DNA from: Dentipellis sp. KUC8613
Lineage: Eukaryota; Basidiomycota; Agaricomycetes; Russulales; Hericiaceae
Direction of reading: 5' to 3'
DNA: 64,000 nucleotides
Assembly: GCA_002286715.1 (NCBI GenBank)
Contig: NSJX01000048.1
Coordinates: forward strand, 135,406 to 199,405
This document shows positions 3,994-10,080 of this stretch, one piece after another (the stretch's first letter is position 1; each line of letters opens with the position of its first letter). Both the position numbers and the translations under genes were made by a program. The notes beneath the pieces were generated by a model. It was not told the origin of the DNA, searched no databases, and saw only the letters and a program-made list of their open reading frames with translations.

Positions 3994-6900
3994 ATGCCCT
4001 CCTACCTCCTGCGCGAAACCCCGACGCCAGAAGACACCTCGTGGGTGTTCACGAACATCCCCGCCGCATTCCTGGCCCCGCAGCGCACTACCGCCCATGC
4101 GAAGAGGCGCGGCAAGCTCGTCATCTTCACGCCCGAGAAGATCACGCTCGAGCTCGCGCAGCTGCCCGGGAACCGCATCGTGTACGCGGACGACGCGGAC
4201 GCGCTCGTGCTCGCGTCGTTCGAGCGGCTGCGCTTCCCCGACGCGAAGCCGTCCGTCGCGACGGAGTATATGGTACGGCTCTTCAGGGCGGGGTTGTTCT
4301 TGAATGGCGTGCAGTATCGGTTTTATGGGCATAGTAATAGTCAGCAGGTGAGTGAATGTCTTCGGTCTTCGGTCCTATATATTTTTCTTGATTCAGATGT
4401 TGTATTGGATGATATTAGCGCAGTCGAGGATGCTTCTTGCGGCAGGCAAATTCGGATGAGGAGCTCGACCGGCGCTTGTACGCCATGGGCGACCTCGAGA
4501 AAATAATGAACGTTGCAAAGCGTACGCTGCGTTTCTTGTTCATCGATCCCATGCAAGGCCTCTAACTGCCACGCATTGTAGGTGCGAAGCGCATAGGACT
4601 GCTATTCTCGGGCGCGGAAATCGACTATCAGCTGGATCCCAAATATGTTGGCGACATTGGTGACCTCACTGTTGGCGACGAAAATTTCTCAGATGGATGT
4701 GGGCTCATATCGAAGAGACTATGGTGAGCATATCGGTGCATTCTGGTCATTTTCCGAGCAGCAACTGAGAGATGTCTAGTGTGCAAGTCAGCCGGGCAAA
4801 ACGGATTATCTTTCAAGGAAAGCCGTATAGTCCTACTGTTTTTCAAATCAGGTGAGGAAGTCCAGTTTTCTACGAGATACTTTGGTTTTGACCTCATCTC
4901 CTCACAGGTACCGAGGGTATAAGGTATCGACATTCCTAAACCTCTTCCAAAATATTTTGGCTGAGGGACAACCCAGGGCGTAGTAATGCTACACCCACCT
5001 CTAGATGCCGAAAAGAAGCATCTAGTCGAGTTCAGGAAGAGCATGAAGAAATTCAACGCCACCGCAGACCACATCTTCTCCGTTGTAAACTACTCAACGC
5101 CATATTCCTACGGACGGCTTAACAACGACATCGTGGTCCTTCTCTCCAGTCTCGGAGTGACGAACGAAGCCCTCCTAAAAAAACAAGCCGAATATTTTTC
5201 TTGGGTCGAACAAGCCTCTCGGGATGTCATCAAAGGCTTCGAATTTCTCTCAAGTTTCGGGCGCTACCCCTCAGCAGAGCGTCTCCTCCTCATAGGCATA
5301 GATTCACCCGCAGTCCAAAAGGAAATCAAGAGCCTGCAGAAGACGGAGGTCGCGTCGTTCTACAAGGACGGCAATACGAAGAAAGAGCGCGTGCGGATGC
5401 TCGTGCACAAGTCGCGCCGCCTGTTTGGCGTCTGCGATCCGTTCCGTGTGCTCCAGGAGGGCCAAGTCCACGTACGGATTACGGTGTCGCGGAATGGGGC
5501 GTCGACTGTGAAGGGTTTAGATGTAATTGTAGTTCGGAATCCGTGTTTGCATCCAGGTCGGTGTGGGGTTCTTCTGGTGAATTCCAGGTATTGACACTTT
5601 GGCAGGCGATATCCTCAAGCTCCGAGCAGTTGATCACCCACAGCTGTCCCACTTGGTCGACTGCGTCGTATTCCCGTCGGTTGGCAAAAGGGCTGCTCCT
5701 TCTATGAGCTCGGGAGGGGATCTCGATGGTAAACACCATCTACCGCCATTCTGGGGATTGCATATAGCTGAGTTCTAATCCAGGCGACGAGTACTTCGTT
5801 TGCTGGGATCCAGAACTGGTTCCAAGCAAGGTCCTCGAGGTACAAGTTTTTGATCCCATGTACAAGCAAGCATCTTGACTAGCATTTTATAGTCATACGG
5901 GTATCCACCCAATAAAGAGCGGGTCAATACCCGAGTGACCAGAGAGGACCTTGCCCGACATTTTGCATCTTATAACAAGTAAGCAAACGAATCGAGTCGA
6001 ATGATAAAGCCATTCACTCTCTGCCATGCGTAGTTCCGGAATGGCCAGGTCCGCGGCTTTGCACAACAAGTGGGCCAGTAGTTCACCCGAAGGCGCGCTC
6101 AGTAAAGAATGTCAAGAGCTCAACGCTCTGTACTCACAAGCCGTCGACGGTGCGAGGATACAAATTCCCGACCGTCTCAAAACTCCACCGGCCCCAAAAG
6201 AAGACTTCGTCCTCAGCATCCTCTTCGCAGAAGCGCAGAAATTCAGCGAACGGTTCGTGCAGGGCTCAGACATTACCGAGGCCGCAGACATCTCGCGCGA
6301 CACAGCGGAAGAGCTCATTCTGCGGCTCCTTTCGGTCGCGGAGCCCGCGGTTTCTGAATATGCGCTCCTCAACAAGGCGCGTGCGATTGCGAGACAGCAT
6401 CAGATCGATTTCACGCCGTACCTGTCCCATATCAATTTCGGAGCGTTGCTGACGAGTGAGAAGTATGAACTCGGGGTTTCCATGAACCTCGCACCGGCTC
6501 AACAGGCCTATATGTGGAATAGCCTGCTAAGGTCTGATATTTTGACAGCGTCCGAGCTTGCGGATAGGAAGCTTGGTGGTCCCCTCCGCGTGCAGCGTTT
6601 GTATTCCTCGAAGACGCTCGGATTATATGCATTTTTCGAGTATCTGGAACGTGCTATGGATGAGTATACCAGGAAACTCATCATATTTAAGGTATGTGCC
6701 TCCTATTTCAGAAGGGCATGAATGAGGAACCTGACCCGACGTTGCAGCTCGATGATAGGTTCTCTGTAGTCGTGTTCATACGCGGAAAAATCCCCTGGAA
6801 CGAAGACGTCCCGGTTGACGGAGAAAACGTCGTTGTGGCATCATTCATGAAAGAATCTGCTTTAGCCATACCGACCTACAAGGCTTGCACCACCGGATTT

Positions 6901-9900
6901 CGTCTGCACTGCAGCGAGGGGAACCTTCAGCTGTTCAACCAGCAACGGGCGAACACATTCATTTTTTTGTCGCGGCCGCCTGCACTCTCGGGGTCAGAGA
7001 TCAAAGTCAGTATAGCGTTGCAGCAGATCTCCGCGAGGGTCCAAAGGGTATGTTGACCTTCCTACACTGGCCTCCATGAGGCTGATTCGAGATGCTGGTA
7101 GCAAATGGGCCGTGTCAACAGAACACCGGTGGTATCGGTGGAAATCCACGTCGTCTCCAATCGTGACCGCGTTGCTCACCAGCTTTTCGACCTTCGATTT
7201 GAGCAGTAAGTTTCATCCTTTTCTTCCTCTTCGCATTCTCACATGACCCAACCCAACCCATAGTATTGCAACAGAGGAATTCATGCGACGTTTCACACAC
7301 CAGTCAACAACATACCAGCCTAATACGCTCGAGGGGGCCGATCTCACAGAACTCCTTACGGAAGCCCAGAGGAGTATTTTTACGGAAATGCCGAATATAG
7401 CGAAAACTCAACTCAGTCAAGAGACCATGCAGTCACTCGATATCTGTGCCGACTTCGCATGGAAATACCATGCAGACGATCAACTATTTTGGATCTTCGA
7501 CGCAATGCTGGCCAGGCTGCCTCTCGACCGGAGCTATATCGCAAAATGGTTGCAACATGAACCCCTTCTAGTCTTCTCCGTGCTCAAACGATGCCCGCCC
7601 ATGGAATCCGGTTTTCTGCACGACGAAGTGGCATCCTTCGACAATTTGCTAACGATGCACATTGTTCGCTCCGCAAATGCGATTGGAATTGCTGCATTGG
7701 TTGCCTTCGAGAAAATACAAGGATCTCTGGCGACCATGCACATCTCCCACTACCTCGAGCTTCTGGAAATGGTCCCGCTATGCGTGCGATCGCCTCAGCT
7801 AGTACAAGAGATGCTTTTTGTCTTGAACGAGTGTCGAGCTTCGAGCAACAATCATCCCCCCAGCATGGTCTACGCGCACAAGCAGGCGCTCGGCGTAGCT
7901 TTCGATCGCGCAGAAGAAGCCGGCGAGGAGTGCCCCTGCGACGAACAAGGCCGGCCGAAGAAGCAGCGCACCGCGCCCGCACTGGTGCCCCTGCACGCAA
8001 TCGAAGGAAAGCCCTACGACGTCATCGCCGACATCCGCGTGGACAGCACGTCGTCCATCCGCCTGCACTCGCACGTCCGCCTCCGGGCAGCGTCGAAGCC
8101 GGAGAAAGGCCACCTGGAGCCCGCGGTGCTCGACGGCGTCGTCGGCGTGGCCAAGGCGGGCGAGGTCAGCATATCGCTGATGCACACGCCGCCGCCCGAG
8201 TTTGCGGAGATGCACTGGTATCTGTACAATGCAGGAAGCGTCGGTGCGTGTGGTGTTCTATCATACCTGATACCAGACCCCCATCTGTTAGCTTATGTTG
8301 GCATTGACAGCCACGTTCCGAGCCATGATGGATGCAATTCGACGGTTGGCAGCTGAAGGTGCGGAGTGCTGTAGGTTCCATCGTCTGATTACTGCGCCGA
8401 AGGATGAAGGATCTGGCGCTGGTGCCGAAGAGCGCCAGAACGACGAACCTACAGATGTCGACGACCACGAAGACGACGGGCTCGCTGACGAGCGCTCGAG
8501 GGGCGATGGAGACACAGACAATGATACAATCACCGGCCTGAATGCGAGCCAGATGCGTGCCGTCCAGTCGAGTGATGCATCGCGTCTCTCGCTCATCTGG
8601 GGACCCCCTGGTGAGTAGTTGCGATTGACTGCTGCAGCCGATATCGACCGAGATATTGATTTGATGCGAATGGCGTTGGCAGGGACCGGGAAGACCACGG
8701 TCGTCGTGCAGATACTCAAGCGCCTGGTGAAGAGGCTGTCAGAAGGGGCAAGCATTCTGATGACAGCATCGACCCACAACGGTGCGTGCGCTTCCGCACC
8801 TGTCCGAGAAGATGCCTTTCCTGAGCGAAGCCCCTGTGCGTGGCAGCCGTCGACAACGTCCTGGAGCGCTTCGTCAAGATCAATAGGGCTGAGAAGCTGG
8901 TGCCCGAGGAGCGCATCCTGCGCGTCGCGACCGACAGCTTCCGGGTGAACAAGGCACTCCATAGCTACACCGTCGAGAGCCGCGTCGGCGGGGAGATCCT
9001 GCGCGACTCGAAGCGTCGCGACAAGGCGGAGAAGCTCGTCAAGGCCGCCACAATTATCTTCACGACCTGCGCCGGTGCCGGATTGGGCATCCTGAGAGGC
9101 ATCGATTTCGACATTGCCCTAATTGACGAGGCGTCCCAGATCACGGAGCCTGTGGCGTTGATACCTCTTGTTAAGGGATGCAAGAAAGCTGTTCTTGTAG
9201 GTGATCAGTAGGTCCTTTTTTCTGATTTTTGAAGTACCGAATCCGGTTCTGACAACGGACGACAGTGTTCAGCTTCGGCCGATGGTTCGCCCGCTGGGGC
9301 ATGCGGTGCTGTATGATGTCTCGTTGTTCGAGCGTCTCTACACCGGCAGAGCACTTCCAGGAATCGAACGCACGATGCTCGATGTAAGCCCTAGAGTCTC
9401 TATCACGACAACCACAGAGATCTGCTCACCTCCCAACCCAACCCTGACAGGTCCAGTATCGCTTCCCCAAGGAGCTCGCCGCGTTCCCCTCGAAGGAGTT
9501 CTACGACGACAAGCTGCAGACGGGCGTCGAGAACGTCTACGAGGCGCTCGCCGGCCTGCTCAGATCCACGTTCCCATGGCCGCGGCAGCCGGGCACGGGC
9601 AGGGTGCAGCCCGCCGTCTTCGTGCCTTGTTCCTCGGAGGAGGACTACGGGGGGCGATCGAAGAGCAACGAGGGGCAAGCGCGGCTGGTCAAGCACATCG
9701 TGCAGCTGCTCAGCACAGACGGCGCGTCGGGCGCGCCGCTCGGCGACGCACCGAGCATCGCCGTGCTGTCGCCCTACACGAAGCAGACGCGGCTGCTGCA
9801 GCGCGTGCTGCCCGCAGCCGCGCCGGCGTACACGATCGACTCGTTCCAGGGCCGCGAGAGCGACGTCGTCGTGTTCTCGACGGTGCGCTGCAACGCGAGC

Positions 9901-10080
9901 GCCGACATCGGCTTCGTGGAGGACGCGCGCAGGCTGAACGTGGCGTGGACACGCGCGCGGCTCGCGCTGATCGTGGTCGGCGATCGCGCGACGATGGCGG
10001 GCACCCTGGGCATCTGGAAGCGCGCCATCGAGTCTTGCTCCGAGGTTGCGCTGACCGGCTGGGATAACGAGCCGAGCTGA
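3994..10080 (+). CDS. RNA-dependent RNA polymerase fused to an Upf1-like SF1 helicase
   Basis: Eighteen exons join in phase to 1693 aa: 3994-4347, 4419-4521, 4582-4723, 4780-4851, 4908-4923 (16 nt), 4977-5556, 5606-5728, 5784-5839, 5893-5978, 6034-6691, 6748-7047, 7102-7205, 7264-8243, 8311-8610, 8683-8781, 8847-9207, 9266-9383, 9451-10080. Residues about 20-557 are a cellular QDE-1/Rdp1-type RdRP: FLNGVQYRFYGHSNSQ, GDLEKIMNVAKRAKRIG, FQIRYRGYKGVV, and the catalytic loop DLDGDEY with Asp461, Asp463 and Asp465. Residues about 560-1230 match nothing I recognise. An acidic linker (about 1231-1264) leads into a complete SF1 helicase: LNASQMRAV, GPPGTGKTT (Lys1295), DEAS (1418-1421), GDHVQLRP, QYRFP, SFQGRESD and NVAWTRAR. 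The product would make dsRNA for silencing and unwind or translocate on the template. The start follows a TATA box. Compared with Rdp1 it lacks the few hundred residues before the RdRP core. Confidence 0.88.

Follow-up and report, generated by a model that had tools for sequence, protein, structure and literature searches.

The gene described here belongs to a design of RNA silencing enzyme that has been characterized in one fungus. FgRdRp5 (Fgrdrp5, FGSG_09076) of Fusarium graminearum, in which an RNA-dependent RNA polymerase (RdRP) and a helicase share one chain, was described in papers of 2015 and 2024 (PMC4515635, PMC11237814). It forms a separate branch in the published RdRP tree and has been set in a Dicer-dependent pathway; its deletion lowered ascospore discharge to 47.6% of the wild-type level and left fewer antisense exonic small RNAs (PMC11237814). 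Within this fusion type, function is reported in the cited papers solely for the F. graminearum member. We analyzed a 64,000-nucleotide stretch of the genome of the mushroom Dentipellis sp. KUC8613 (hereafter the window), in which the plus-strand gene at 3994..10080 encodes a protein of the same architecture. Judged from its sequence, this gene very probably belongs to a family of single-chain RdRP-helicases conserved in fungi, the FgRdRp5 type. Its product is composed of an RdRP of the RNA interference (RNAi) type, an alpha-solenoid and an Upf1/IGHMBP2-like helicase, and it would make double-stranded RNA (dsRNA).

Several other systems resemble this protein in part. The F. fujikuroi protein FFUJ_03638 is noted to have ATPase domains (PMC11130915), and the amphioxus protein BL02069 (Branchiostoma), likened here by its description, combines an RdRP with AAA_12 in one animal protein (PMC6396948). 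RrpA, RrpB and RrpC of Dictyostelium and the RDRs of oomycetes, Hydra and Nematostella also have a helicase fused to an RNAi RdRP, but theirs is a DEAD-box helicase resembling that of Dicer (N-terminal in the oomycete protein), whereas that of Dentipellis is a C-terminal Upf1-like superfamily 1 (SF1) helicase (PMC3661229, PMC4791657). An RdRP is likewise partnered with an SF1 helicase in Schizosaccharomyces pombe (Rdp1 and Hrr1), Neurospora (SAD-1 and SAD-3) and Caenorhabditis elegans (EGO-1 and ZNFX-1), but these pairs are separate proteins, whereas the Dentipellis protein is one chain and its helicase is not of the ZNFX1 type (PMC9276528, PMC5384783, PMC7763443). The coronavirus polymerase nsp12 also works with a helicase of Upf1-like fold, nsp13, which is an analogy only; these are viral and separate subunits. 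The coronavirus polymerase family is unrelated to the RNAi RdRPs.

One reading frame joins an RdRP to an Upf1-like helicase

The rebuilt gene model has 18 exons and 5082 nt, with every intron GT-AG and a single, terminal stop, and encodes 1693 amino acids, exactly the uninterrupted frame put forward in an initial annotation of this DNA. The two halves are bridged by the 980-nt exon 13 (7264..8243, plus strand). As that annotation had stated, this exon has no stop in the coding frame; the other two frames contain 7 and 2, and none of 5000 first-order Markov imitations reproduced the stop-free coding frame. The best database match is the NCBI protein P0001 (1668 amino acids; Dentipellis sp. KUC8613, Russulales, Hericiaceae), the product of the same gene, which differs from our model at intron 16. 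There, P0001 uses an earlier donor, at window position 9134 (stretch 9134-9265), which costs it 25 residues between the end of motif II and motif III. Because nearly all relatives retain these residues, the rebuilt model, which is also that of the initial annotation, is the better one at this intron. The splicing pattern is predicted from the frame, the splice signals and conservation.

The RdRP half contains the eukaryotic RdRP domain PF05183 (residues 88-558, exons 1-10, 4255..6175, plus strand as are all features of the gene), with a Pfam E value of 2.8e-105 and a score of 353.6 bits against a cut-off of 23.8. Together with the catalytic motif DLDGD (residues 461-465, 5719..5788, interrupted by intron 7), this identifies an RdRP of the eukaryotic RNAi class. 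The motif was assessed in an alignment of the 153 of 179 relatives that are at least 1400 residues long; among the rows with a letter at the position, the catalytic aspartates are conserved in 148 of 148 (D461), 149 of 149 (D463) and 149 of 150 (D465). The C-terminal part of the RdRP half, delimited by alignment (residues 559-860, 6176..7191), has a beta-rich end in the model of a relative. It is followed by the bridge (residues 898-1087, 7361..7930), which the structure model predicts to be an alpha-solenoid of 12 helices and for which a search of the PDB gave no specific family match.

The helicase has a predicted 1B beta-barrel region (residues about 1095-1190, 7952..8239), placed from an AlphaFold2 model of the relative P0126, in which the region around motif V is missing; about 40 residues ahead of the barrel, VIA alignments to Ighmbp2 and Upf1 begin. 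After the barrel come RecA1/AAA_11 (8535..9287; Pfam match at about residues 1267-1452, E 2.6e-44), with motifs Q, I (Walker A, 8601-8699), Ia, II (9122-9139) and III, and RecA2/AAA_12 (residues 1461-1663, 9312..9987, E 3.1e-44), with motifs IV, V and VI. Thus, an Upf1-like SF1 helicase is complete in its motifs and barrel according to the alignment and the model, and it occupies nearly the same positions as the DEXDc (1277-1478) and AAA PF13087 (1475-1677) domains that follow the RdRP in FgRdRp5 (PMC11237814). The Walker A box GPPGTGKTT starts at residue 1289, 828 residues after the start of DLDGDEY at 461, in agreement with the earlier observation of an RdRP core followed by a full SF1 helicase some 800 residues later. 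In sum, PF05183 precedes AAA_11/AAA_12, near residues 1270-1680, in one chain, which is the FgRdRp5-type architecture. Of the 22 Pfam families that match the protein, the 21 other than the RdRP family all have their best stretches within residues 1265-1663, C-terminal to the RdRP, and a Dicer-type fusion with an N-terminal DEAD helicase is thereby ruled out. At the level of sequence, the catalytic motifs of both active sites are intact and held in one conserved chain, and the proposal of a gene fusion between an RdRP and an Upf1-like SF1 helicase has held up, the two parts staying together in relatives.

The fusion is widespread in fungi

We searched twice for relatives; the figures refer to the best 120 of 219 rows in the first search and the best 120 of 425 in the second. 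PF05183 was found in all 120 rows of the first search and a helicase domain as well in 104 of them, which answers the suggestion that other Agaricomycetes be checked for the same fusion. The named rows are Agaricomycetes, presumably of the Russulales, Agaricales, Boletales, Polyporales, Hymenochaetales, Auriculariales, Cantharellales and Sebacinales; the orders of Dentipellis, Vararia, Lentinula and Rhodocollybia were looked up. In the second search, PF05183 was found in 114 of the 120, and the six rows without it start within the RdRP half. This search shows the fusion in many Ascomycota, with rows from Fusarium, Trichoderma, Podospora, Aspergillus, Alternaria, Glarea, Gyalolechia and Kalaharituber, among others. 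The Fusarium fusion P0269, from the ascomycete sister clade, is 35% identical to the Dentipellis protein over the full-length alignment. Among the rows checked, no clearly stand-alone member of the fused helicase's subfamily was found. The fusion is therefore not the unusual arrangement that it was at first taken for: it is common across Agaricomycetes and many filamentous Ascomycota and has been reported in Fusarium (PMC4515635, PMC11237814, PMC11130915). It is real and conserved, a design already known in Fusarium and widespread in mushrooms and moulds.

A trivial explanation would be that gene prediction has wrongly merged two adjacent genes. Serpula (P0102/P0135) and Psilocybe (P0120/P0147) could be cited for it, since their RdRP and helicase parts are listed separately, on same-sized contigs. 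However, the RdRP parts of both stop within Walker A, and therefore such a split would leave no complete helicase. The bridge exon is free of stops beyond chance expectation, both domains are annotated in one protein in those 104 of the best 120 of 219 relatives, and the Omphalotaceae take the same odd position in trees of both halves (see below). We consider a merger of two genes extremely unlikely.

The models of 28 of the 179 relatives end before residue 1600, and 13 of these leave the family directly after GPPG, at intron 14 (8611..8682), which lies within the Walker A codons, between GPPG and TGKTT (12 were labelled by script and P0109 was added by eye). Retention of this intron in the window gene would end the frame as GPPGE-stop. 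If the breaks were spread evenly over five introns, an arbitrary assumption, 13 of 27 would fall at intron 14 with a probability of about 0.001 (P0103, which ends earlier, was excluded), but the models lack independence, and six of the 13 are from Mycena. These truncations more likely stem from propagated annotation error than from a real polymerase-only isoform.

The helicase is Upf1/IGHMBP2-like, not of the ZNFX1 type

Compared with solved structures, the fused helicase scores best against Upf1 (161 bits); SMUBP-2 reaches 132, and ZNFX1 (98.9) ranks 19th of 31. The label of Upf1-like SF1 helicase given in the initial annotation thus fits, in the sense of Upf1/IGHMBP2-like. The protein is not UPF1 itself, for which a gene on contig C128 scores 678 bits, and the UPF1 zinc domain is not among the 22 Pfam families matched. 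IGHMBP2 (TIGR00376) is likewise ruled out, at 175.3 bits against a cut-off of 348.9 (run on P0001, which is 25 helicase residues short), and the scores above speak against the ZNFX1/Hrr1/SAD-3 type. As a positive control, a different gene, on contig C81, has ZNFX1 as its first solved match (135 bits, vs 62.6 for Upf1).

The same scores bear on the idea that the gene is by homology a covalent version of Rdp1-Hrr1 or SAD-1-SAD-3, the parallel drawn by the initial annotation. According to PMC9276528, ZNFX-1 and its S. pombe orthologue, Hrr1, both work together with RdRPs. Because Upf1 is the best match and this genome has a separate ZNFX1-type gene at C81, the fusion resembles Rdp1-Hrr1 in kind and not by descent of its helicase, an assignment in which ZNFX1 stands in for the Hrr1 and SAD-3 sequences. 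Thus, the parallel holds as a likeness but is not supported as homology, and descent from an Rdp1-Hrr1 pair is very improbable.

The fusion probably moved between mushroom orders as one gene

An RdRP-core tree was built from 33 chosen rows, including five of the six other Dentipellis RdRP loci (the partial C89 locus was left out). The Ascomycota fusions (support 97/99) are sister to the Agaricomycete fusions (91/97), and the RdRP half groups with the former, apart from the genome's other RdRPs, on a moderately supported joint branch (80/93). Of the Dentipellis paralogues, three fall with plant RDR2 and two on the QDE-1 side, one of the latter being the long-branched C113 row. As the simplest reading, the sequences suggest a single fusion event before the Ascomycota-Basidiomycota split; because the uniting branch has only 80/93, we hold this reading with moderate confidence.

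Trees of the fused protein were made from chosen subsets: 54 rows, 25 rows for the half trees and 28 rows for a careful tree. The 54-row tree, which carries a long-branch warning (Serendipita, Auricularia), shows a largely expected order-level pattern, from which one group departs strikingly. The Omphalotaceae, the shiitake family of the Agaricales (Lentinula, Collybiopsis, Rhodocollybia and Gymnopus), lie within the Russulales, the order of Dentipellis, adjoining Vararia; we take Collybiopsis and Gymnopus to be Omphalotaceae. In the 28-row tree, nine Omphalotaceae rows join Vararia at 100/100, and in the RdRP-half and helicase-half trees this join has a Shimodaira-Hasegawa-like approximate likelihood ratio support of 99 in each. 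These half trees are not perfect species trees, with Boletales among the Agaricales in the RdRP half. Forcing the Omphalotaceae with the other Agaricales was rejected by the approximately unbiased (AU) test for both halves (p-AU 2.7e-7 for the RdRP and 3.1e-5 for the helicase), and forcing the Russulales into one clade was rejected on the 28-row tree (3.9e-4); the groups tested were named after the 54-row tree had been viewed. All ten Omphalotaceae rows (P0004, P0008-P0011, P0020, P0056, P0067, P0091 and P0103), which were drawn from the best 120 of 219, were placed, nested in the Russulales with Vararia (P0012), and none is of the Agaricales type; the Russulales themselves are thinly sampled, with seven rows.

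Four genera contribute these rows, in some cases from contigs listed at 0.3-2 Mb, and contamination is therefore a poor explanation. The strongly supported nesting of both halves suggests that the gene was transferred horizontally as a whole; paralogy with losses is a less probable alternative. On these trees we lean towards the view that the fusion is a transferable RNA-silencing module that moves as one unit: it would have been made before the Ascomycota-Basidiomycota split, and a donor lineage in the Russulales would later have passed the whole gene to ancestral Omphalotaceae, where it apparently displaced the native Agaricales copy. The available passages of the open-licence literature yielded nothing on a mushroom RdRP-helicase fusion or its transfer, and the helicase passages of PMC7763443, PMC6572790, PMC4182546, PMC6145500 and PMC4290597 do not mention the mushroom fusion.

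Other RNAi and helicase genes of Dentipellis

Piwi and Dicer-dimer matches were found, and RNAi machinery is therefore present in this genome. Besides the fusion gene (C115), it has six RdRP loci, at C106, C122, C128 (two), C113 and C89 (an incomplete match where the contig ends), none of which adjoins an AAA_12 match; these counts are lower bounds. The initial annotation had raised the possibility that the genome lacks a stand-alone RdRP, which these loci do not support. As the Agaricomycotina mean is 6.93 RdRP genes (PMC4290597), seven loci are ordinary. The two C128 loci (46.9-49.1 kb, plus strand, and 53.6-55.9 kb, minus strand) are sisters without a helicase domain that face each other about 4.5 kb apart as an inverted pair, and UPF1 itself lies on C128 about 190 kb from them.

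Several helicase loci were also observed. The ZNFX1-type gene at C81 (about 233-238 kb) is followed by a frame that has P-loop as well as cysteine-rich stretches. C142 and C108 hold two pairs of adjoining similar SF1 helicase genes, presumably MOV10/SDE3-like; for the one tested, Upf1 was the best solved match (82 bits). At C80 (about 1325-1336 kb), four AAA_12 matches within about 10 kb form an array of related SF1 helicase frames.

Possible mechanism and significance

A role in the production of small interfering RNA is supported by the published deletion of the Fusarium orthologue (PMC11237814). The fused protein would copy selected single-stranded transcripts into dsRNA, which Dicer would cut into small RNAs. 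The helicase would strip proteins and structure off the template, and its motor would carry the tethered polymerase to the template 3' end, where copying begins. Upf1-type motors move 5' to 3' on the bound RNA strand, and an RdRP travels along its template in the 3'-to-5' direction. Because these expected polarities are opposite, joint advance on one strand would be impossible, and clearing and delivery are therefore favored; we propose this order of events only tentatively, in preference to a helicase that works in front of a polymerase already in motion.

A helicase running ahead of the polymerase, giving the processive dsRNA synthesis on structured RNA that the initial annotation suggested, would make sense of two intact active sites retained in one chain, and the confidently predicted solenoid could fix the distance between them. 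With the polarities of the Upf1 family and of RdRPs, however, the motors would converge on one strand, and we regard this arrangement as unlikely. The helicase might instead act on the product, tracking the new strand 5' to 3', in the same sense as synthesis, or opening the duplex, thereby recycling templates or making short RNAs. This is equally doubtful, as the Fusarium orthologue is set in a Dicer-dependent pathway, which requires duplex (PMC11237814).

Several points weigh against the reading of the gene as a fused dsRNA-making enzyme that clears its template and delivers its polymerase. The splicing and the enzyme activity of the Dentipellis protein are predicted, and the polarity of its helicase is a prediction from the Upf1 family. 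Some of the 28 short models could be real short isoforms. In the RdRP-core tree, the all-fusion branch has only 80/93, the C113 paralogue is a long branch of odd composition and QDE-1 fills 37% of the columns. Finally, ribosome-biogenesis genes are enriched among the changed genes of the Fusarium mutant, and the same paper considers that the protein might act in ribosomal RNA processing, a different function (PMC11237814).

The conserved fusion shows that many fungi can couple dsRNA synthesis covalently to an Upf1-like motor, and a single gene with two point mutants would suffice to test what helicases do in RNAi amplification. If the transfer is true, a silencing enzyme has passed from one mushroom order to another, which might be expected of a gene that serves defence and less of a housekeeping gene.
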